The notes under the pieces are model-generated. The model did not search any database and was not told the DNA's origin. It saw only the letters and a list, made by a program, of their open reading frames with translations. From assembly GCA_903872035.1 (NCBI GenBank), contig CAIQIZ010000020.1, positions 1 through 53,858 on the forward strand: a stretch of DNA of 53,858 nucleotides. Direction: 5' to 3'. Of the stretch, positions 580 to 17,612 are shown one piece after another. This DNA is from an uncultured bacterium. GTDB lineage: Bacteria > Patescibacteriota > Minisyncoccia > Phycocordibacterales > PALSA-1337. The position numbers and the translations under genes were made by a program. Positions within the stretch are counted from its first letter, which is position 1; every line of letters begins with the position of its first letter.

Positions 580-2328
580 ATGTTCGTCGAAGACGCCCAG
601 CTCTACAAATTCATCCTCGACTCCGGTCTTGTCACCAAGGAGGAGCTTCTGAGTGCCAAGAAGGAAAGCGAAGCCAAGAATAAACGCTTGGGTGACATCT
701 TGGTCAAAGGTGGCAAGATAAACGCCGACAATCTGCGCCGTATGCAGGCTTATGTGTTGGGCATTCCATTTGTGGACTTGAAGAACAAGAAGGTCCCTTT
801 TGAGACGCTCTCGCTCATTCCAGAGCCGATCGCTCGTGGTCATAATATCGTGGCTTTCAAGAAGTCGGAGGTCTCTTTGGAAGTGGCTATGTTAGACGTC
901 AACGATCTTTCGGCCATCGATTTTATCAAGAAGAAGGTCAATTTGAAGATTTTGCCACGTCTCACCGATTCCGATTCAATCAAAGAAGCGTTGGTTCAGT
1001 ATCAAAAGAGTCTCAAGGCGGAATTCGGCGATATTATCCAGAAGGAGACAGAGACGCTGAAGATGCTTTCCGAAGAGAAGGGTGAAACGGCTTCCGAGGA
1101 GGATCTAAAGAAGATCGCCGAGGATCTTCCAGTTGTGCGTATCGTCGATACGTTGATCAAACATGCCATCTTACAAAATGCCTCCGATATCCATATCGAA
1201 CCAATGGAAGGTCAAGTCTTGGTCAGATACCGTATAGATGGCCTGCTTCATGATGCCATGGTCCTGCCTCGTCAGGCCGGACCTTCGGTGACGGCTCGTA
1301 TAAAAGTGCTCTCCAATCTGAAACTCGATGAAAAGCGTTTGCCCCAAGACGGGCGTTTCAAAGTAGATATGAGCAATGAGAAAGTCTCCTTCCGTGTCTC
1401 AATCCTGCCGACATATTATGGAGAAAAGATCGTCATGCGCCTTCTCCGTGAGAGCATCACTGGTTTTACTTTGGAATATTTATGTTTCCACGGCGAGAGC
1501 TTGGAGCGCATACACCAGGCTATGAAGCAGACTACTGGTCTCATATTGACCACTGGGCCGACAGGTTCAGGAAAGACTACTACGCTTTACACCATGTTGG
1601 ACAATCTGAATCAGCCTGACGTGAACATCTCTACCATCGAAGACCCGATCGAATATCAGATGGCGCGCATAAATCAGACGCAAGTCCGACCAGATATCGG
1701 TTTCTCTTTTGCCCAAGGGATCAGGACCCTGGTCCGTCAGGATCCGGACATAATCATGGTCGGTGAGATCAGAGATGATGAGACAGCGGCGCTCGCGGTG
1801 AACGCCGCCTTGACTGGTCACTTGGTCCTTTCGACTTTGCACACCAATTCCGCGGCCGGGGCGATGCCGCGTCTTCTTGATATGAAAGTTGAGTCGTTTC
1901 TTCTGGTTTCGACTCTGGACATCGTTATTGGCCAGCGTTTAGTCCGTCGTTTGACCCATTCCAAGCAACAATACAAGTTGTCTCGAGACGAATTCAGCGA
2001 ACTCCAAAAGCTAGTCGACCTTGACCACGTTCTCGAGGCTTTGAAGCACGAAAAGATCGTAAAACCGAACGAGACTTGGGATAAAATCCAATTCTGGAAG
2101 CCAGTGAAAGGCGTCGATGATGACGGTTTCAAGAGCCGGGTCGGTATTCATGAGGTGCTCAAGATGACACCATCGATAAAAGATCTGATCATGAAGAATT
2201 CCACATCTATTGAGATCGAAGCTCAGGCCAAGAAAGAGGGGATGCTGACCATGATCGAGGACGGTATATTCAAATGTGTGCAAGGGTTGACTACTATAGA
2301 AGAAGTGTTGAGAGTGGTTTCTGAATAA
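580..2328 (+). CDS. pilB: Type IV pilus assembly ATPase PilB/GspE family
   Basis: Walker A TGPTGSGKTTTLYTML, SDIHIEP, IRTLVRQDPDIIMVGEIRDDETA, LSTLHTN motifs; followed by PilC. Confidence 0.95.
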   Translation: MFVEDAQLYKFILDSGLVTKEELLSAKKESEAKNKRLGDILVKGGKINADNLRRMQAYVLGIPFVDLKNKKVPFETLSLIPEPIARGHNIVAFKKSEVSLEVAMLDVNDLSAIDFIKKKVNLKILPRLTDSDSIKEALVQYQKSLKAEFGDIIQKETETLKMLSEEKGETASEEDLKKIAEDLPVVRIVDTLIKHAILQNASDIHIEPMEGQVLVRYRIDGLLHDAMVLPRQAGPSVTARIKVLSNLKLDEKRLPQDGRFKVDMSNEKVSFRVSILPTYYGEKIVMRLLRESITGFTLEYLCFHGESLERIHQAMKQTTGLILTTGPTGSGKTTTLYTMLDNLNQPDVNISTIEDPIEYQMARINQTQVRPDIGFSFAQGIRTLVRQDPDIIMVGEIRDDETAALAVNAALTGHLVLSTLHTNSAAGAMPRLLDMKVESFLLVSTLDIVIGQRLVRRLTHSKQQYKLSRDEFSELQKLVDLDHVLEALKHEKIVKPNETWDKIQFWKPVKGVDDDGFKSRVGIHEVLKMTPSIKDLIMKNSTSIEIEAQAKKEGMLTMIEDGIFKCVQGLTTIEEVLRVVSE

Positions 2329-2332
2329 GCAT

Positions 2333-3556
2333 ATGTCCCATTTCATTTTTAAAGCAAAAAAACCGAGCGGCGAAGTCTACTCTGCAGAGAAAGATGCGGC
2401 AGATCGATATGAGCTGTACCGGATGGTTCGTGAAACTGGCGACGAGATGGTCGAGTTCAAGGAGCATGCCTCGGGAGGCGGTTTTAAGGTAGACATCTCT
2501 CTTGGTTTTCTGACAAACCATGTCAAGGCTATGGAGAAGATAAATTTCGCTAGGAACCTAGGGGCTATGCTCCAAGCTGGTTTGGCATTATCACGAGCTT
2601 TGATGGTCATAGAACGCCAATCGCACAATCAGGCTCTCAAGAAGGTTATCACAACAGTCATTGGAGAGATCGACAAAGGCTCGGCATTTGCCGAAGCCTT
2701 GTCCAAGCACCCGAAAGTCTTCCCACCGTTGTTCATCTCCATGGTCCATGCCGGGGAACAGTCAGGAACTTTGGCTGATTCCCTAAAGGTGGTAGCCGCG
2801 CAGATGGAAAGCAGTTACGCTTTGGAGCGTCGGATCCGTGGCGCTCTCATGTACCCAGTGGTCATTGTTAGCGCCATGGTACTCATCGCTATTCTCATGT
2901 TTATCTTCGTGATACCGACCCTCCTCAAGACCTTCACTGATCTCAAAGTGGAGTTACCTCTGGCGACCAGAGTCGTCCTTTTCGTCAGTGATACGATACG
3001 CAATGACGGTCCTCTGGTTCTCATATTTTTTCTGCTGGTCGGCGGTTCTATCTACTGGTGGTCGCGCCGCCCATCCGGTAAGAGCGTATTACATGCGACA
3101 ATGTTGAAGATCCCTGTCATAGGTGGATTGGTACAGGAGGTCAATGCTGCTCGGACGTCGCGCACTCTCTCTTCGCTCCTGACATCCGGAGTGGATGTCG
3201 TTGAAGCGGTTTCAATAACGGCTAACGTTGTCCAGAACGTGCACTTCAGGGCAGTCTTGACTAGCGCCGCTGAAGCTATAAAAAAGGGCGACCTCATGTC
3301 CAAGATATTCGCTGAAAAGGGCGCTAAGCTATACCCGGTATTTTTTTCTGAGATGATGAGCGTAGGCGAAGAGACGGGGAAGACGGGGGAGATGCTTCTC
3401 GGGGTGGCTAAATACTACGAAGAAGACGTCGATCAAAAGACTAAAGATATGTCGACTATTATTGAGCCTATACTTATTCTAGTCATTGGGGCGGCGGTCG
3501 GGTTCTTTGCCGTGGCTATGATCCAGCCTATGTATTCATTGGTTAACGCGATGTGA
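2333..3556 (+). CDS. pilC: Type II secretion/type IV pilus inner membrane protein PilC/GspF
   Basis: F..KA..PSGE N-terminus, duplicated T2SSF domain, MVHAGEQSGTL and MMSVGEETGKTGEML motifs. Confidence 0.93.
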   Translation: MSHFIFKAKKPSGEVYSAEKDAADRYELYRMVRETGDEMVEFKEHASGGGFKVDISLGFLTNHVKAMEKINFARNLGAMLQAGLALSRALMVIERQSHNQALKKVITTVIGEIDKGSAFAEALSKHPKVFPPLFISMVHAGEQSGTLADSLKVVAAQMESSYALERRIRGALMYPVVIVSAMVLIAILMFIFVIPTLLKTFTDLKVELPLATRVVLFVSDTIRNDGPLVLIFFLLVGGSIYWWSRRPSGKSVLHATMLKIPVIGGLVQEVNAARTSRTLSSLLTSGVDVVEAVSITANVVQNVHFRAVLTSAAEAIKKGDLMSKIFAEKGAKLYPVFFSEMMSVGEETGKTGEMLLGVAKYYEEDVDQKTKDMSTIIEPILILVIGAAVGFFAVAMIQPMYSLVNAM

Positions 3557-3651
3557 TCAAAAAGTTATCAAGTTAAAAAGTCCGTAAAGTTCGTAAAGCC
3601 ATCTCAACTTTCACCTTTCAAACTTGCAACTTTATTTACTTTATAAACTTC

Positions 3652-5433
3652 ATGAACTTTCAAACTTTAAGAACTAACAAAGGTTTCAGTTTGGTGGAAG
3701 TCCTGGTCGGGACGGCCATATTTCTGATTGTAGCAATGTCTGTTTACGGTGCCTTCACAAGCCTATTGAAGTTGGCAAACGGTAGTCAAGCTCGGACACT
3801 TGGTGTGGAATTGGCAGACGAACAATTCGAGATAATCCGAAATATGCCATATGTTTCGGTAGGTCTAACGAACGGTATACCCTTGGGAATTTTGCCGCAG
3901 ACACAGACTTTGACTCGTGGAGGTATCACCTTTACAGTCAGTTTGACCATAAGGAATATCAATTTTGCCACTTCTTCGTTACAGGCCAGCGACAAGCTCG
4001 TACAGGTTGAGGTGACTTGTCCGGGTTGCCAGGATTTCCAACCGATAGTCTTGACCGGACAAGTGTCGCCAGCCAATCTCCAGTCCGCGGCTTCCGGTGG
4101 AGCATTGGTTGTGCAAGCATTGAATGCTAGTGGCCAACCAGTGGAGGGGGCAACAGTCTATGTCCAGAGCTTGAGCACTAGTACAGTCCAAGATACCGAT
4201 GTTACCAACGATCAAGGGACACTGAACATTATCGGTGTGCCTCGAGGTACGAATATGTATCGGATAATAGTGTCCAAGGACGGATATTCCACGGCCAGCT
4301 CGTCGCGTCCGGGCAGCATGGGACTCTCTACTCCGGTCAATGCCGACGCTACGGTGTTGAATCAGCAAGTGACGACTGCCAGTTTTTCTATAGACCAATT
4401 GAGTTCGCTGCACATTTCCAGCGTGTCGCCTATTTGTGCGGTAGTGCCGAATATACATTTTTCTTTAACCGGAGCAAAGCTCATTGGTACTAGTCCGAGC
4501 GTTTTCAAATTTCCAACAGTTAATGTGTCGACAGGGTCAAGTGGGACTCTCAACCTCGTAAATATGGAGTGGGATACGTACACGTTGACACCTACGGACA
4601 GTTCCTATGATGTAGAAGGTGTGAATCCGTTCAGTCCATTCGCTCTGAATCCAAATAACTCCCAAAACGTCCAATTGGTCGTAGTTCCCAAAAGCTCCAA
4701 CAGTTTCATGGTGTCCGTGGCTGATCGAAGCAGCAAGTTGCCGATCTCCGGTGCGACCGTGACTCTCTCGGGGGGTTCATATACTGGTACCTATGTGACT
4801 GGACAAGGATATCTGTCGCAAACCGATTGGTCTGGAGGAAGCGGGCAAGTGAATTACACCAATCCCAACCAGTATTTTGCCGACAATGGCCGGGTCGATA
4901 CCTCGACTTCTTCGGGGAACATAGTGATGAGATCTTCTTTCGGGCTTTATTCCACTTCAGCCACATCTACTCTAGAATCTTCGACTTTTGATACTGGGTC
5001 GGCTAGCAATTATTACACTTTATCTTGGAATCCAGTGAGCCAACCTGTCTTGACCGGCACCAACAGCGTCAAGTTCCAGTTCGCCACCAATCCGTCTGCG
5101 ACTTCCACAGTCTGGACCTATCGAGGACCGGACGGTACATCCAATTCCTACTTCACAGTGCCCGGGTCACCGATCAATGTTGTGAGCAATGGCAATGAGT
5201 TTGCCAGGTACCTTGCTTACATGACGACTAAGACTGCGACTGTCACGCCCATGATATCAAACGTATCATTTGCTTATACGTCGAGTTGCGCTCCGCCCGG
5301 CCAAGTCATATTCCAAGGTCTATCGGCTGGAAGCTATACTCTGACTGTGTCCAAGAGCGGTTACACGACATATTCCGGTTCGGTGACGATAGGTAGCGGC
5401 TGGCAACAGCAGACGGTTAGTCTTGGTTCTTAG
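3652..5433 (+). CDS. Large prepilin-like protein (PilV-like N-terminus) with carboxypeptidase-regulatory-like repeats
   Basis: Prepilin motif NKGFSLVEVLVGTAIFLIVAMSVY; ALNASGQPVEGATVYV and DRSSKLPISGATVTLSGG segments. Confidence 0.85.
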   Translation: MNFQTLRTNKGFSLVEVLVGTAIFLIVAMSVYGAFTSLLKLANGSQARTLGVELADEQFEIIRNMPYVSVGLTNGIPLGILPQTQTLTRGGITFTVSLTIRNINFATSSLQASDKLVQVEVTCPGCQDFQPIVLTGQVSPANLQSAASGGALVVQALNASGQPVEGATVYVQSLSTSTVQDTDVTNDQGTLNIIGVPRGTNMYRIIVSKDGYSTASSSRPGSMGLSTPVNADATVLNQQVTTASFSIDQLSSLHISSVSPICAVVPNIHFSLTGAKLIGTSPSVFKFPTVNVSTGSSGTLNLVNMEWDTYTLTPTDSSYDVEGVNPFSPFALNPNNSQNVQLVVVPKSSNSFMVSVADRSSKLPISGATVTLSGGSYTGTYVTGQGYLSQTDWSGGSGQVNYTNPNQYFADNGRVDTSTSSGNIVMRSSFGLYSTSATSTLESSTFDTGSASNYYTLSWNPVSQPVLTGTNSVKFQFATNPSATSTVWTYRGPDGTSNSYFTVPGSPINVVSNGNEFARYLAYMTTKTATVTPMISNVSFAYTSSCAPPGQVIFQGLSAGSYTLTVSKSGYTTYSGSVTIGSGWQQQTVSLGS

Positions 5434-5442
5434 TAAATCTTT

Positions 5443-6084
5443 ATGCAAGAAATATTATTCACGAATAAAAAAATAGGTAGTGGAGGACGACGGGGTATGA
5501 CCCTCGTGGAAGTATTGATTGCTCTGGCAATCTTTGTGGTTGTAATCGTGGCGGTTGGGACATTCGAAGCTAACATTTTTAGATATCAAAGTTCTATATC
5601 AGGATCTTATCAGACCGCCCAAAGCGCCCAGATAATATTGAAGATTATGCTTCAACAGATCCGGGAAGCGGAGCCGGCCGCTAATGGCGCATATACTTTG
5701 GCAAATGCCGGCAGTACGACCATGACTTTCTATTCCGATCCTGATAATGACGGAACGGCCGAGCGGATCACCTATTCACTGATCGGCACGACCATATACC
5801 AGATCACGATACAACCATCTGGTATGCCACCTTCATACAATGTGGCCAGTCAATCTACCACGACTCTCTTGCGAAATGTCGTAAATAGCCTAAGCACTCC
5901 GGTCTTTCAATATTACGATACGAATTATAACGGAACTTCATCGCCTCTAGCTCAGCCAGTCACTACCACGGCCGTCAGATTAGTTAAGATAAACGCGACC
6001 CTAGATTTGGATTCCAATAGGTCTCCAGTTCCCATTACCTATACCGTCCAAGCCAGCTTCCGCAACTTAAAGACAAATCTATGA
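5443..6084 (+). CDS. Prepilin-type N-terminal cleavage/methylation protein (PilW/PulJ-like)
   Basis: RRGMTLVEVLIALAIFVVVIVAVGTFE class III signal. Confidence 0.85.
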   Translation: MQEILFTNKKIGSGGRRGMTLVEVLIALAIFVVVIVAVGTFEANIFRYQSSISGSYQTAQSAQIILKIMLQQIREAEPAANGAYTLANAGSTTMTFYSDPDNDGTAERITYSLIGTTIYQITIQPSGMPPSYNVASQSTTTLLRNVVNSLSTPVFQYYDTNYNGTSSPLAQPVTTTAVRLVKINATLDLDSNRSPVPITYTVQASFRNLKTNL

Positions 6085-7601
6085 AGCACACACTACTTGT
6101 CAAATATGCTCGCGGAGACATCCTGCTAAGCGTCATCATCTTTGCGGCTATCGCGATCACTATGATCATTGGTTTGGTAAATTGGGGCGCTTCCCTATTA
6201 GGTAGCATCAGGAGCGTAGCAGCTCGTGAGCAGGCCTTTCAGATCGCAGAGGCTGGTGTCGACTATTACCAATGGCATCTTGCTCAAAGTCCTAACGATT
6301 ATAAGGATGGTACTACCACCCCGCAGCCGTATGTGCATAAATTCTATAACAAGGATGGAGATTTGCTCGGCAGTTATTCATTGACGATCGCTCCACCGCC
6401 GGTCGGTTCGACTTTGGTAAAGATAACTTCTGTAGGAACGCTGGCATCTTCGACAGTGAGCCGCTCAGTCCAAGAAACTCTTGCCATACCTTCATTGGCT
6501 CGTTTTGCAGTAGTAGCTAACGACAACATGAATTTCGGTTCCGGTACGACGGTCTATGGACCGATACAATCAAATGCTGGAATCCATTTTGATGGTGTGG
6601 CCAACAATCTGGTCTCGAGCGCCCTCACAACGTATACCGATCCAGATACCGGCCAGACCCAATGGGCAGTTTACACAACATCAGGCACTGACGACCCCCA
6701 GCCGAATACACCATTTAACAATAGACCTGATGTCTTTGTGGCAGGTAGACAAGTTGGGATTCCTTCATTTCCATTCGGAAGCCTGGCAGCTAATCTAAGC
6801 CAGTTGCAGGTCCTGGCCCAATCAGGTGGCAAGGAGTGGACATCTTCAAATGCGCAGGGTTATCACATCGTCTTTGAAGTCCCGAATTCGCAGAATGGTA
6901 ATGCGACAAGCTATTTCATGTATAAGGTCACAACGCTACAGGCAGCACCTAACGGGTGTGGCACTGATGGAACCGCCCAGAGCGAGAGCCAGTGGGGAAC
7001 GTGGACGATCAAGAATCTGACAGGCAGCAACAATAGCGGTAATAGCAATGAATCTCTGGTGAACGGGTCTAATGCTGACCATTCATGGCCTCTTCCAGGT
7101 AACGGAGTGATCTTTGTTGATGATGATGTTTGGGTGGACGGCACAGTGAAGAATGCCCGGGTTACTATCGCGGCAGGTATTATAGGGTCGAGCAATCCGG
7201 ATAATTACTCAAATATCACGGTCAATACAAATCTTAGATACACGAACACTGACGGTACCGATGTTATCGGTCTGATCGCGCAAGGCAATATCAATTCAGG
7301 TATGGTCAGTGACGATACGTACGAGATTGACGCGGCTCTCATCGCCGAAAATGGACGCGTCGGTAGATACTATTACAATAGCAATTGCAGCGTTAGTAGT
7401 ACGGATTATTCGACTAGAACCCAGCTTACTTTACTTGGAATGATCGCGACTGCTGTCCGTTACGGTTTTGCTTTCAGTGATAACACTGGCTATGCGATTC
7501 GAAACATCAATTATGATGCAAATCTGCTATATGCTCCGCCGCCGTCATTCCCGCAAGCGTCTTCGCAGTACCAGGTGATCTCTTGGCAACAGTTGAACTA
7601 G
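6081..7601 (+). CDS. PilX-like pilus-associated protein
   Basis: N-terminal TM followed by REQAFQIAEAGVDYYQWHL; 4-bp overlap with the preceding prepilin gene. Confidence 0.75.
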   Translation: MKHTLLVKYARGDILLSVIIFAAIAITMIIGLVNWGASLLGSIRSVAAREQAFQIAEAGVDYYQWHLAQSPNDYKDGTTTPQPYVHKFYNKDGDLLGSYSLTIAPPPVGSTLVKITSVGTLASSTVSRSVQETLAIPSLARFAVVANDNMNFGSGTTVYGPIQSNAGIHFDGVANNLVSSALTTYTDPDTGQTQWAVYTTSGTDDPQPNTPFNNRPDVFVAGRQVGIPSFPFGSLAANLSQLQVLAQSGGKEWTSSNAQGYHIVFEVPNSQNGNATSYFMYKVTTLQAAPNGCGTDGTAQSESQWGTWTIKNLTGSNNSGNSNESLVNGSNADHSWPLPGNGVIFVDDDVWVDGTVKNARVTIAAGIIGSSNPDNYSNITVNTNLRYTNTDGTDVIGLIAQGNINSGMVSDDTYEIDAALIAENGRVGRYYYNSNCSVSSTDYSTRTQLTLLGMIATAVRYGFAFSDNTGYAIRNINYDANLLYAPPPSFPQASSQYQVISWQQLN

Positions 7602-12428: not shown

Positions 12429-13172
12429 ATGGATATGATAACAATTTTCACCGATGGCTCATCACGAGGAAATCCTGGACCGGGAGGGTGGGGGGCAGTA
12501 ATCGCAATGAAGGAAGGAGCTAGGAGCAAGGAGATAGGAGAGGCGCAGACACAAATCACTGAATTGGGTGGAGGAGAAAAGATGACTACGAATAATCGCA
12601 TGGAATTGACGGCTTGCGTGCAGGGGCTGGTTAATACTCCAAAGGATTCGGAGGTGACGGTCCTTACGGATTCGTCATATGTCATTAATGGCATGACCAA
12701 GTGGATCCATGGCTGGAAGAGGAACGGCTGGAAGACAAAGACCAAAGACGATGTACTAAATAAGGACCTATGGATGGAGTTGGCGGATGAGATAAGCACG
12801 CGGCAGGTCCAGTGGAAACATGTCGGTGGTCATGTGGGGATTCTCGGTAATGAACGTTGTGATCATATAGCGACTGCATTTGCAGATGGTATGGATATCA
12901 AATTATATAAGGGATCGTTGGCGGATTATGATTTACCGGATGTTCTAGATGTTTCTTTGGATGCGAGCAAAGCCAAGGCGAAGAAATCATCCTCGGCACA
13001 TTCTCGAGCCAAGGCCTTTTCATATGTGAGTTCGGTGGGTGGCATTATTGAGACTCATCATACCTGGGCGGAATGCGAGAAAAGAGTGAAGGGTGCGAAG
13101 GGAGCCAAATTTAAGAAATCTATAAGCGTTGATAGTGAGCAAGAAATTATTGCTGAATTCGAGGCATTGTGA
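12429..13172 (+). CDS. rnhA: Ribonuclease HI with C-terminal viroplasmin/RNase H1 N-like (Cauli_VI-type) domain
   Basis: IFTDGSSRGNPGPGGWG, NRMELTA, LTDSSYVI, ERCDHIA; C-terminal HHTWAECEKRVKGAKGAKFKKSIS. Confidence 0.88.
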   Translation: MDMITIFTDGSSRGNPGPGGWGAVIAMKEGARSKEIGEAQTQITELGGGEKMTTNNRMELTACVQGLVNTPKDSEVTVLTDSSYVINGMTKWIHGWKRNGWKTKTKDDVLNKDLWMELADEISTRQVQWKHVGGHVGILGNERCDHIATAFADGMDIKLYKGSLADYDLPDVLDVSLDASKAKAKKSSSAHSRAKAFSYVSSVGGIIETHHTWAECEKRVKGAKGAKFKKSISVDSEQEIIAEFEAL

Positions 13173-13194: not shown

Positions 13195-13260
13195 GCAAAG
13201 CGAACTCTGTTCTGTTTCAAACTGGCCCACAGTTCTGAAACAGAACAGAGTTCGCTTTGC
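13195..13260 (+). promoter_or_regulatory. Conserved hairpin, copy 1, upstream of comEC
   Basis: Perfect 25-bp outer stem GCAAAGCGAACTCTGTTCTGTTTCA plus inner AACTG/CAGTT stem, GCCCA loop. Confidence 0.85.
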
Positions 13261-13266
13261 TTTAAA

Positions 13267-13332
13267 ATCTTCATAACTTCTTGAAACATTTTTTATCTGA
13301 TTTTGAACCTTTCTTCATAAGTTCTTCATTTG
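13267..13332 (+). repeat. Six tandem 11-bp repeat units upstream of comEC (copy 1)
   Basis: atcttcataac/ttcttgaaaca/ttttttatctg/attttgaacct/ttcttcataag/ttcttcatttg. Confidence 0.7.
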
Positions 13333-13339
13333 CGGAGCA

Positions 13340-13345
13340 TACAAT
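13340..13345 (+). promoter_or_regulatory. Putative -10 box TACAAT 6 nt before the comEC start codon
   Basis: Same relative position as TAGACT in copy 2. Confidence 0.5.
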
Positions 13346-13351
13346 CACGAG

Positions 13352-14785
13352 GTGAGAAAAGGCGTCATCATCTTCTGGAGCATATTTGTAGCGGCTGCGA
13401 TTTTTCGTGTTTGGCAATCATTTGATGCAACGGCGCCGGATATAGGCGATTGTCTTAAGGAAACCATCACAGGTGTTGGCGCCATTGTAGTTGAGCCACA
13501 GAAGACGGGGACAGGACAAGTGTTGGTTGTGAAGGTGGAAAGAGCTGAGGAATCTTACGCTGTAGCTGATTACAATTCTCTTGATTCAAATCGATCATCG
13601 AATAAGAAATGTCCATCCGATATTCTTCTACGCATCAAGACCAAACTTTACCCCGAGTTTTCGTACAACGACAGAGTTACGTTTAAAGGAAAATTATTGG
13701 AGCCGATGAATTTTGGAAACGGCGGTAGCGGAAGGGAATTTGATTACAAAGGTTACTTGGCCAAAGATGATATATTTTACGAAATGAAGAGTGCTGTTGT
13801 GACGAAGGTCGACGAAGAAATCGCGCAAAAGCGGTCTGAGGCGGGCCCGATTTCAAATGTTACAAATAGAATCACTCTGTTTCTGTATTCTCTCAAATCA
13901 AAGTTCGTCGACAATCTGAATCGAACTTTAGGCGAACCGCATGCCGCTTTAGCTGCAGGTTTGGTGGTGGGTGAAAGGGCGGCCTTAGGTAAGGACCTTT
14001 TGAATGATTTTCGAACGGTCGGACTGATCCATATAGTAGTGCTTTCCGGATTCAACATCACTATTGTTGCCTATGCTATGCGACGCTTGCTCTCATTCTT
14101 GCCGCGAGTCTGGGGAATCCTGATCGGCGGAGTAGGCATCATCCTATTCGGAATTCTTGTTGGCGGTGGAGCCACGGTCGTGCGCTCATGCTTTATGGCT
14201 GGAATCGCCCTATCAGCGGATCTTCTGCGCCGCGATTACAGCGTGATTAGGGCGTTGGCTTTGGCAGCACTCCTCATGCTCATACAAAATCCTATGATTC
14301 TGCTTCATGATACGTCTTTCCAACTTTCATTTCTGGCGACTTTGGGTCTCTTGCTCCTGGCAAGCCCAATCGAGGGGCAGCTGAAATTCATCCCGGATAT
14401 TTTAGGAATTCGGGGAATAGTTGCGGCTACGGTTTCCACGCAGATATTTGTCTCACCGTTCATTCTTTACATAATGGGCCAGATTTCAATTATTGGCGTT
14501 GTCGTGAATATCCTAGTCTTGCCGAGCATTCCGCCCACTATGCTTTTTGTATTTCTCACCGGGGCCGGCGGCTTTGTTTGGATGCCGGCCGTAAAATTAT
14601 TCGGTTGGATCTCTCATATCTTTCTCTCATACGAGCTATTCATGGTGCAGAGTTTTGCTCGTCTACCATTTGCTTCGGCTCACGTATCGGCATTTTCCAT
14701 CTGGTGGGTCATCGGATTCTACGGAATATTTGCGATCACTTTTCTGATTATTAAATGGATAGATGCCGGGAAAAAGTTAAGATAG
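13352..14785 (+). CDS. comEC: ComEC/Rec2 competence membrane protein lacking the C-terminal MBL domain
   Basis: AALAAGLVVGERAAL, GLIHIVVLSGFNITIVAYAMRR, multi-TM; GTG start. Confidence 0.9.
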   Translation: MRKGVIIFWSIFVAAAIFRVWQSFDATAPDIGDCLKETITGVGAIVVEPQKTGTGQVLVVKVERAEESYAVADYNSLDSNRSSNKKCPSDILLRIKTKLYPEFSYNDRVTFKGKLLEPMNFGNGGSGREFDYKGYLAKDDIFYEMKSAVVTKVDEEIAQKRSEAGPISNVTNRITLFLYSLKSKFVDNLNRTLGEPHAALAAGLVVGERAALGKDLLNDFRTVGLIHIVVLSGFNITIVAYAMRRLLSFLPRVWGILIGGVGIILFGILVGGGATVVRSCFMAGIALSADLLRRDYSVIRALALAALLMLIQNPMILLHDTSFQLSFLATLGLLLLASPIEGQLKFIPDILGIRGIVAATVSTQIFVSPFILYIMGQISIIGVVVNILVLPSIPPTMLFVFLTGAGGFVWMPAVKLFGWISHIFLSYELFMVQSFARLPFASAHVSAFSIWWVIGFYGIFAITFLIIKWIDAGKKLR

Positions 14786-14792
14786 GGTGCTT

Positions 14793-15488
14793 TTACTTCT
14801 GTAGGGTTGCCACTATCACCAATCTCTTATCATACGTTCTTTGATCTCCGACCCAGTTTCCTTCGCAGGTTATGAGTACCAGTCGTGAATCTGTTGATCT
14901 CATGATATCTGTTAGGGGAACTTGTTGGTAATTATAGGAGTTGACGCTGGATACTAAGAAATCAAGATTCGTTCCTTCTTCAGTCGTGATATATACATGA
15001 TCGCCGACGTTGATATTTGAAAGATGTTTGAAGACTCCTGGTAATCCTAGGCCATTGTCTACGTGACCGTCGATGAGGGCGCTGCCGGAAAGGCCTGGTG
15101 TGGCGCTATTCTCATACCAACCTACATCTGTAAAGTTGCTCGGTGAGCCGATCGTTCCTTTGGCTGTTATGCCTACATATTGGACCTTGGCATTTATTCC
15201 CAGGCTTGGAATAGAGAATCTTAGTGGATATGTTGGTGGGATGACGACGATCTTTTTGAGAAAGCCTGGATCGGTAGGGGAGGCTGCTGTAAGAGCCGGC
15301 GTTGCCAGAGGAGTTTGTGATGCTGCAAGAGATTCAGGTGTTATAGATTCAGATGTAACAGCAGCGCTGGCTGGCTCGTAAGATGGAAAAGAATAACCTA
15401 TGACAGCGCCAGTGTATGTGCGCACAAACACAACCGCCGCGATTGCGGCGATTGTGGTCGGCACAAAGTAAGAAAGGAAGCGTTTCAT
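14793..15488 (-). CDS. Sortase, class F-like
   Basis: IDGHVDN (His), LITCEG (Cys), YDKRLVIVA (Arg), N-terminal signal anchor. Confidence 0.88.
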   Translation of the reverse strand: MKRFLSYFVPTTIAAIAAVVFVRTYTGAVIGYSFPSYEPASAAVTSESITPESLAASQTPLATPALTAASPTDPGFLKKIVVIPPTYPLRFSIPSLGINAKVQYVGITAKGTIGSPSNFTDVGWYENSATPGLSGSALIDGHVDNGLGLPGVFKHLSNINVGDHVYITTEEGTNLDFLVSSVNSYNYQQVPLTDIMRSTDSRLVLITCEGNWVGDQRTYDKRLVIVATLQK

Positions 15489-15503
15489 ACTTTTTTACTT
15501 TGA

Positions 15504-15968
15504 TTACGAGGTCGATACAGTGATACGGCTATCCATATAGGCTTTGCGGCTTATGTATACAACACTACCGACAAGAGCTAATGTTGCGACAGACAAGACG
15601 ATCCAATTGGTAGTCGCCATGCCTCCTGCTCCGGTATTGGGGACACCGGGTGTGACTGGTTGAGAATAGTTCAACGTGACTCCAGCTGTGCCGTTAGGAT
15701 CGCTGACGCCTCCACCATATGTCATGGTTGTTGCGTTATAGAAGGTACCATTGCCGTAGTAATATACCTGTTGTCCGCCCTGTGATGGCCCGGCATTGAC
15801 GTAGTAATATCCTGCCGCAAGCGGTCCAGCTCCCGAATTGACGGACATTCCAGACTGATTGTAGAGGACTGGCATGGTCGCGTATGTCTGCCCGAAGGCT
15901 ACGAAAGGCGTGACTGCCATAGCGGCGACAAGCACTGCGCTCGAAGCTATGTATGATAATTTTTTCAT
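15504..15968 (-). CDS. Small secreted surface protein with LPXTG-like sorting signal (VPNTG)
   Basis: Signal peptide; C-terminal GVPNTGAGG + hydrophobic helix + RKAYMDSR. Confidence 0.75.
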   Translation of the reverse strand: MKKLSYIASSAVLVAAMAVTPFVAFGQTYATMPVLYNQSGMSVNSGAGPLAAGYYYVNAGPSQGGQQVYYYGNGTFYNATTMTYGGGVSDPNGTAGVTLNYSQPVTPGVPNTGAGGMATTNWIVLSVATLALVGSVVYISRKAYMDSRITVSTS

Positions 15969-16126
15969 TAGATTTTAGACGATTAATCTATAGTAATAAT
16001 TCGACATACATCATGACGAACCATTATGAGAAGTATTACAATTGCAATCGGCAATCTTGTAATGTCGTGACAAAGAGCTATTCGGGAATGCTGTGTTAAA
16101 GAGCGATAGAGATGACCTTTATGATA

Positions 16127-16726
16127 TTAAAGATACGAGATCAATCGTGAGGTTGGTGCAATCGTGAAGTTTTCCGGCTGGAGGATAGCTGTCACAACTA
16201 GGCGTTGGTCATAAGTCTTTTTGGAAGCAATGAATTTGCCATGGCAAGTGATGATCTTGAGAAGCGCGCCGCTGTAATCATTGAAGATCTGTTTGCTCGG
16301 AAAATTATCCGTTTTGTAAGCGTCGATTCGGCTTACAACAAAGTGTAGGATTTGACCGCCAGCATTCTTCACATCTATCGTGTCTCCGATATTCACTTTT
16401 TTCAATTGTTTGAATGGTCCGGGAATGCTCGCGCCATTATCAACATGGCCATCTATGATGGCGCTCCCGATCTGGCCAGGTGCAACGCCGTTCTTATACC
16501 AACCGGCTTGGACAAAGTTTGGAGGAGTATCTAGATTGCCTTTGGGAGTCACGCCTACGGGTATGATTGGAGCATCGATTTTTGCTGCAGGAATGACTAT
16601 ACGTACCGGCGGCAATTGCTGTGCCGCAGCAGTCTTATATGAAAAAGCTCCGACAAAAATCGAGGCGATGAGCAATATTTGCGCGACCATCCTGTTCCGA
16701 GACATCTTGGTGAAGAATAATATCAC
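16127..16726 (-). CDS. Second sortase, class F-like
   Basis: IDGHVDN, IITCHG, YDQRLVVTA motifs. Confidence 0.88.
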   Translation of the reverse strand: MILFFTKMSRNRMVAQILLIASIFVGAFSYKTAAAQQLPPVRIVIPAAKIDAPIIPVGVTPKGNLDTPPNFVQAGWYKNGVAPGQIGSAIIDGHVDNGASIPGPFKQLKKVNIGDTIDVKNAGGQILHFVVSRIDAYKTDNFPSKQIFNDYSGALLKIITCHGKFIASKKTYDQRLVVTAILQPENFTIAPTSRLISYL

Positions 16727-16755
16727 CTGTGTCGTATGTGACTAGTGTTTTATGG

Positions 16756-17367
16756 CTAAATGCGTGGTGTAATGCTTGCTTTCCCGTAATTCTCTTCCAT
16801 CACCTCCCAATTTAAATTCGCGAAGAAATCTTCGACATATTGCTTCTTGCCGGACGGTTGATAGTCAGCTACGTAAGAGTGTTCCCACATATCGAGGCCG
16901 AGGATCATGACGCAGCCATTCAAAAGCCCTAGATGCTGCTCGTCGATCCATGAGCAATGCAGATCACCAGTCCTAGGATCGCACCACAGAGTGGCCCAAC
17001 CGATACCGCGAGTGGTGGCTGCGAAATTCTTGAATCCTTGGAGCCAACCATCAAACGATTGCCATGTTTCATTGATTTTCTTCTTCAAAGGGCTTGAATC
17101 CGTGAGTGTCTTCGAACCTCCTTCCAGAGAAGAAAAATAGACTTCATGGTTGCGTATACCGTTGTATTCAAAGCTGAAGCGGCGGAGGAATTCGTTTATC
17201 GAGTAAGCATTTGCTTCAGCATCTTTGGCATAGACGTCCATCTTTTCATGGATGAGGTTGAGATTCTTCACGTATCCCTGGTAAAGCTTCAGATGTTCCT
17301 CGATGGTTTTCTCAGAGATCCCTTTAAGTTTAGGAATCTTAAAAGTTTTGGCAGCGAATGGGGTCAT
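16756..17367 (-). CDS. Fe/Mn superoxide dismutase
   Basis: GIGWATLWCDPRTG, LDMWEHSYVADYQP, IRNHEVYF motifs. Confidence 0.9.
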   Translation of the reverse strand: MTPFAAKTFKIPKLKGISEKTIEEHLKLYQGYVKNLNLIHEKMDVYAKDAEANAYSINEFLRRFSFEYNGIRNHEVYFSSLEGGSKTLTDSSPLKKKINETWQSFDGWLQGFKNFAATTRGIGWATLWCDPRTGDLHCSWIDEQHLGLLNGCVMILGLDMWEHSYVADYQPSGKKQYVEDFFANLNWEVMEENYGKASITPRI

Positions 17368-17455
17368 ATGATTGGTTTTTTATGATGATAATTGGTTAAT
17401 TATACATTGAATCATACGAAGTATGGCGGTTGGCTGGTTCAGAAGCTAACGTTTT

Positions 17456-17521
17456 GCGAGGCAACCTATGTCCTGTTTCAAACTGGCCCACAGTTCTGAA
17501 ACAGGACATGAGCTGTCTCGC
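17456..17521 (+). promoter_or_regulatory. Conserved hairpin, copy 2, upstream of the MBL-like gene
   Basis: 66 nt; identical 32-nt core CTGTTTCAAACTGGCCCACAGTTCTGAAACAG with a diverged but mostly paired outer stem. Confidence 0.85.
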
Positions 17522-17527
17522 CTAAGT

Positions 17528-17593
17528 ATCTTCATGACTTCTTGATACTTTTTTTATCGTTTTTTTAAACTTTTTTCATCATATCTTCATTTC
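17528..17593 (+). repeat. Six tandem 11-bp repeat units (copy 2)
   Basis: atcttcatgac/ttcttgatact/ttttttatcgt/ttttttaaact/tttttcatcat/atcttcatttc. Confidence 0.7.
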
Positions 17594-17600
17594 GGTTGGG

Positions 17601-17606
17601 TAGACT
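17601..17606 (+). promoter_or_regulatory. Putative -10 box TAGACT 6 nt before the MBL-like start codon
   Basis: Same offset as TACAAT in copy 1. Confidence 0.45.
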
Positions 17607-17612
17607 TGGAGC

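Follow-up and report, generated by a model that had tools for sequence, protein, structure and literature searches.

What do the two halves of a split ComEC channel share upstream? Contig CAIQIZ010000020.1 of an uncultured bacterium (53,858 nt, analysed at its full length and referred to as the window) carries two genes that correspond to the membrane and metallo-beta-lactamase (MBL) parts of ComEC, and each is preceded by a hairpin, six tandem 11-bp repeats and a -10 box (Table 1). An initial annotation took this arrangement for a dedicated, two-copy element that co-regulates the split pair. Its measurements are reproduced here. The 32-nt core is identical in both hairpins (0 matches in 100 shuffles), exactly 91 nt separate the hairpin from the start codon at both GTG 13352 and ATG 17613, and 61/91 positions agree between the two spacers, 54 of them within the first 70. 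Each spacer contains six units spaced by 11 bp (pattern [C/T]TT[C/G/T]A; shuffled means 1.1-1.2), and stem pairing is kept despite divergence, with compensatory change in 14 of 30 pairs over six copies (0/500 shuffles). The arrangement joins two separate things, a conserved promoter and a wandering hairpin repeat. With a probability of roughly 0.85, the repeat array is the conserved promoter of a competence regulon, and a response regulator of the PhoB/OmpR family most likely binds its repeats.

The comparison covered 34 congeneric genomes, including that of the window (G000; the other 33 are called relatives), and separate models were built for the hairpin (R1) and for the promoter (R2, from six copies). 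The description as a two-copy element is superseded: in this 1.05 Mb genome R2 finds 18 strong promoter copies (each E < 1e-9), the hairpin core occurs six times (≤3 mismatches) and the hairpin family occupies about 35 places. All 18 promoters contain 4-7 units in register (1.14 on average in shuffled sequence) and are without a separate -35 element. A TAnnnT -10 box lies 10 nt past the last unit in 18/18 by count, or in at least 17/18, as the dprA distance is 11 by eye. In one copy the repeats number eight and not six, so that its array is longer by exactly 22 bp.

The genes behind these promoters include comEC, the ComEC MBL half, comM, dprA, a type IV pilus-type (T2SSE) ATPase, an N-methylated pilin, small proteins and RNAs; the Pfam families found downstream are Competence, DprA, ComM, T2SSE, N_methyl, Y1_Tnp and PemK (two PemK-like proteins). 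The six core copies all precede an array and a TAnnnT box, one of them with the core reversed. Behind them lie comEC, the MBL gene, comM and the genes of a 59-aa protein and a secreted beta-helix/lipase protein, and the sixth site directly follows a response-regulator gene. Co-regulation of the split ComEC is supported as a property of the array promoter, which is shared with comM, dprA, the pilin, the ATPase and an rpsF leader. At L037 (C21:37411) the promoter stands before rpsF, which begins about 210 nt downstream, and it does so too at L088 and L100. In Bacillus subtilis the rpsF-ssb operon is under competence control, which the rpsF promoter recalls. A RAYT-like Y1 transposase gene (L038, G000:C18:5490-6180) has a competence-type promoter as well.

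Is the array a feature of one genome only? The initial annotation had named a lack of conservation in relatives as a sign against its proposal; the array is conserved across the genus and tied to the response regulator. R2 finds the promoter in 23/34 genomes, and the gene types behind it are alike in G005, G001, G007 and G020, with several competence members. When the search started from the proteins and not from the motif, at least three in-register units were present upstream of the comEC orthologs in 24/30 genomes (at least four in 16) and upstream of the comM orthologs in 26/30 (at least four in 17); the tuf upstream control gave 0/29 at both thresholds.

The sixth core site points to the candidate regulator, a PhoB/OmpR-type protein with receiver and Trans_reg_C domains (G000:C10:185-874) that has orthologs in 30/34 genomes. 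One of these (G022, a 38% match only) was left out, and among the remaining 29 loci an array of at least four units lies directly after the stop codon of the regulator gene in 22 (0/5800 shuffles). The phosphorylation residues D8, D9, D51 and K101 are invariant. Over the whole order, the search for the regulator returned relatives of 40-52% identity, and a clear array downstream was not found in most of them.

The sequence of the repeat unit drifts between genomes, and the comEC, comM and regulator-linked arrays resemble each other within genomes far more than between them (0/10000 permutations for all three pairs; 2233-5320/10000 for the tuf comparisons in the same test). Genome relatedness and base composition add to this concordance, but they are common to the tuf controls. 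Such concordance would be expected of a single protein that binds all three arrays with a drifting preference; together with the array that adjoins its gene, it makes the response regulator the likely regulator. In G008 both the regulator-linked (L152) and the comEC (L281) promoters carry another unit, approximately TGTTATC/CGTAATC every 11 bp (seen by eye at L152), which suggests that regulator and site have co-evolved there. In G007 a histidine-kinase-like gene lies behind the promoter (L103, C34) and is a possible partner kinase.

Several points weigh against this reading. The PemK-like proteins, the lipase, the RAYT, the tRNA-like RNAs and rpsF have no specific tie to DNA uptake, and the regulon may thus be broader, relating for example to stress or to a life stage. 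A second, less similar PhoB-family response regulator is present in some genomes and could bind the sites instead. Several comEC and comM promoters and the regulator-linked loci L152, L154 and L158 do not fit the unit pattern. Finally, the R2 counts (18 copies; 23/34 genomes) are biased towards the six-copy form used for the model, a bias of which the regulator loci (found by homology), the protein-first comEC and comM test and the concordance test are free.

The mixed membership raises the alternative that the array is the site of a generic envelope or stress regulator and not of a competence regulator. The lipase/beta-helix protein, the PemK-like proteins and the tRNA-like RNAs would fit it, as they share the promoter, but several genomes have comEC, the MBL gene, comM, dprA, the pilin, the ATPase and the rpsF leader among the members, and the comEC and comM arrays are found genus-wide, which makes this alternative improbable. 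Beside it also stands the main type IV pilus operon of the window (580-7601; pilB, pilC and pilins), in which the R2 search finds no promoter copy.

Under the preferred reading of a competence promoter, the regulator would bind the tandem repeats along a single face of the DNA, its monomers or dimers lined up in a row. The bound protein would act as an activator, substituting for the -35 element and bringing RNA polymerase to the TAnnnT box 10 nt downstream, and the regulon would be switched on for DNA uptake. It would comprise the split ComEC channel, DprA, ComM, the pilin, the type IV pilus-type ATPase, the rpsF operon, the RAYT transposase, two PemK-like proteins, small proteins and tRNA-like RNAs, as well as a hairpin-headed small RNA just past the regulator gene. 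For comM, comEC and the MBL gene, transcription would begin at or beside the start codon. The TAnnnT box ends 6-7 nt before the ATG of comM in 29/29 genomes and 5-8 nt before the start codon of comEC in 20/30, and since it ends so few nucleotides upstream, the comM, comEC and MBL mRNAs are probably leaderless.

The promoter after the regulator gene appears to serve an RNA. A small conserved hairpin with a GTCGA loop directly follows its -10 box. Both sides have changed in 5 of its 6 pairs (0/500 shuffles), which suggests that this covarying hairpin marks a small RNA. A reading frame of 33-40 aa (MSRDNLYES...) after this promoter was rejected as a gene, as the region folds as the covarying hairpin. 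tRNA-like RNAs lie directly behind the competence promoter at L035 (C3) and L043 (C9), and in relatives at L075, L079, L101, L107 and L108. These loci have an acceptor-like stem and a T-arm, without a clear D arm. Past them lie a sigma70-like promoter and then an RNA, in which a GTGGA... stretch corresponds to the acceptor strand and varies together with it. A normal tRNA identity was rejected, as ARAGORN gave two calls only, neither convincing; against Rfam the RNA-like loci gave one tRNA only, and the window and the other copies gave no family.

The hairpin behaves differently from the array. R1 gives 42 matches in the genome, in about 35 places (palindromes match both strands), and 0 matches in the other 33 genomes (E 1e-8). 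The copies, 50-68 nt as matched, have the repeat core CTGGCCCACAG. They have in common the apex NNCTG-GCCCA-CAGNN and a 3'-side bulge; their arms are paired but vary freely. The 11-nt apex occurs 37 times in this genome and 0-1 times in each of the others. At least 16 hairpins lie in-frame within long reading frames that continue as coding sequence on either side of them; their hosts according to NCBIfam are secA (two in one frame), ligA, tsaD, pyrD, a nifS-like gene, rsmI, a beta-CASP RNase, dnaG and ileS, and in rsmH the hairpin lies just ahead of the matched domain. The hairpin proves to be a scattered repeat, the other outcome that the initial annotation had named, and its proposed place in the regulatory element is not borne out. 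A role as a DNA uptake sequence was rejected as well: there are only 37 core copies, nearly all of them within hairpins.

Some hairpins follow closely on stop codons, as do copy 1 (rnhA stop at 13172, hairpin from 13195) and those behind dksA-like and D-Ala-D-Ala carboxypeptidase-like genes, as intrinsic terminators of the upstream genes would. A T-run directly after the stem is missing in the copies inspected, however, many hairpins lie inside reading frames, and copy 2 stands between divergent genes, which had already led the initial annotation to deny it a simple terminator role. A terminator function is accordingly very unlikely.

The pattern is that of a lineage-specific palindromic element, separate from the promoter and akin to the Rickettsia palindromic elements. 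With these and with REP/RAYT systems it shares the dispersal of palindromes, their in-frame insertion into housekeeping genes and a Y1 transposase in the genome (PMC3733652, PMC10969869). By contrast, the core here is CTGGCCCACAG, the elements are shorter, and the link to the RAYT is only putative. In the listed hairpin copies, inspection by eye showed neither of the end tags GTAG and CGTC (PMC3733652).

Why, then, do hairpins adjoin competence promoters? Seven of the 18 promoters carry one just upstream, in either orientation, with 41-42 nt (six cases) or 37 nt (one case) between the centre of the core and the first unit; the other 11, including those of dprA, the ATPase and the pilin, carry none. 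By a rough calculation, about 0.1 of the roughly 35 hairpins would adjoin arrays if they were random in intergenic DNA (P ~1e-11). This excess, and the compensatory changes that keep the hairpin paired, could mean that hairpin and array form one composite, the palindrome having been recruited in this lineage as an upstream insulator or activator, in the form of a cruciform or a protein site. Such a composite is unlikely in view of the 11 promoters without a hairpin, the 33 relatives that lack it and have intact promoters, the core that is reversed relative to the array in 2/7, and the location of most hairpins elsewhere, many in coding sequence.

It is more likely than not that the hairpins came to lie beside the arrays through an insertion preference, or through gene-conversion copying of hairpin-array cassettes, without any regulatory role. 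The near-fixed spacing combined with free orientation favours this explanation, as do the AACTG-apex core, found mainly at array sites and at two others, and the RAYT-like Y1 transposase that is itself part of the regulon. A further point in its favour is that template-switch repair, too, can keep palindromes perfect. A target-site duplication is not demonstrated, and clear orthologs of the arrays downstream of the hairpins occur in G005 without a hairpin, which makes copying of the whole cassette unlikely for all seven. Insertion preference or local spread is preferred because 11 promoters and all relatives are without a hairpin, and recruitment is possible.

The initial identification of the two downstream genes as ComEC parts is supported by PF03772 in the one and by the predicted structure of the other. 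In the membrane part TIGR00361 scores under its cut-off (92.5 vs 190 bits), and neither Pfam nor NCBIfam assigns a family to the MBL protein. The model of the MBL protein (mean pLDDT 65) has as its best PDB match the beta-lactamase-like domain of Moorella ComEC (9ic4, E 4.5e-15). Four aligned orthologs share an invariant ATxxDxK, and the HxHxDH metal motif is missing in them at the expected place, so that the MBL protein may not be an active nuclease.

Table 1. Coordinates of the features discussed (window positions unless a contig is given).
Feature	Position	Strand	Remarks
Hairpin copy 1, 66 nt, perfect, bulged C, loop GCCCA	13195..13260	.	dispersed palindromic repeat, outside the conserved promoter
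Six tandem 11-bp repeats, [C/T]TT[C/G/T]A units, upstream of comEC membrane part	13269..13329	+	predicted promoter; promoter-model E 1.4e-19; 6 units vs shuffle mean 1.1
-10 box TACAAT	13340..13345	+	10 nt past last repeat, 6 nt before GTG 13352
comEC membrane part, DUF4131 and Competence domains, 477 aa	13352..14785	+	PF03772 E 2.9e-46
Hairpin copy 2, 66 nt	17456..17521	.	same dispersed repeat
Second array of six tandem 11-bp repeats, before ComEC MBL-domain gene	17530..17590	+	promoter-model E 4.8e-19
-10 box TAGACT	17601..17606	+	10 nt past last repeat, 6 nt before ATG 17613
Separate ComEC beta-lactamase-like domain protein, 329 aa	17613..18602	+	four orthologs aligned; predicted structure
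Candidate small RNA after response-regulator gene: array, TAnnnT, covarying 5' hairpin, later CTTCC motif	G000:C10 ~1022-1200 (L134)		and 27 orthologous loci

The competence regulons of B. subtilis (ComK), pneumococcus (ComE/ComX) and Haemophilus (Sxy/CRP) co-regulate comEC, dprA and pilin genes, and some of them ssb or comM. None of these is known to combine leaderless com mRNAs with a tandem-repeat promoter of the PhoB type. A close likeness, which rests on the regulator family and the geometry of the site, is to the CiaR regulon of streptococci, where direct repeats TTTAAG-N5-TTTAAG are followed by a -10 box ten nt downstream (PMC3091779). Both systems combine an OmpR-family regulator, 11-bp repeats (a 6-mer and N5 in CiaR), a -10 box ten nt past the last repeat, small RNA targets and a link to competence. 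CiaR sites differ in having two repeats, and the mechanism by which CiaR affects competence is called undefined by the authors (PMC3091779), whereas here 4-9 repeats lie directly before comEC, comM and dprA. The PHO boxes of PhoP/PhoB likewise consist of 11-nt direct repeat units, with arrays of up to six units at Streptomyces pitH2, but the unit sequence is another and their targets concern phosphate, not DNA uptake (PMC7866108).

In Patescibacteria, to which this bacterium probably belongs by its genome size and gene content, ComEC, DprA and type IV pili are known from the naturally competent Saccharibacteria, in which comEC is needed for transformation (PMC10633639). The same paper names the extent of active competence in Patescibacteria as an open question, and its main text contains no word starting with "regulat" and describes no control element (PMC10633639). 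The control of competence in this group is apparently undescribed in the open-licence literature. A wider picture, which is speculative and on present evidence rather doubtful, is that of a reduced-genome, probably Patescibacterial lineage in which a phosphorylation-controlled master regulator of transformation would act on long tandem 11-bp arrays and drive tRNA-like RNAs, a new small RNA headed by a hairpin and com mRNAs that are mostly leaderless. At the same time, a Y1 transposase under competence control might spread single-stranded-DNA hairpins through the genome and beside the promoters of the regulon. The promoter itself, told apart from a mobile palindrome with which it would otherwise be read as a single element, would give Patescibacterial competence a concrete regulator, a DNA motif and a list of genes that are conserved over about 30 genomes.

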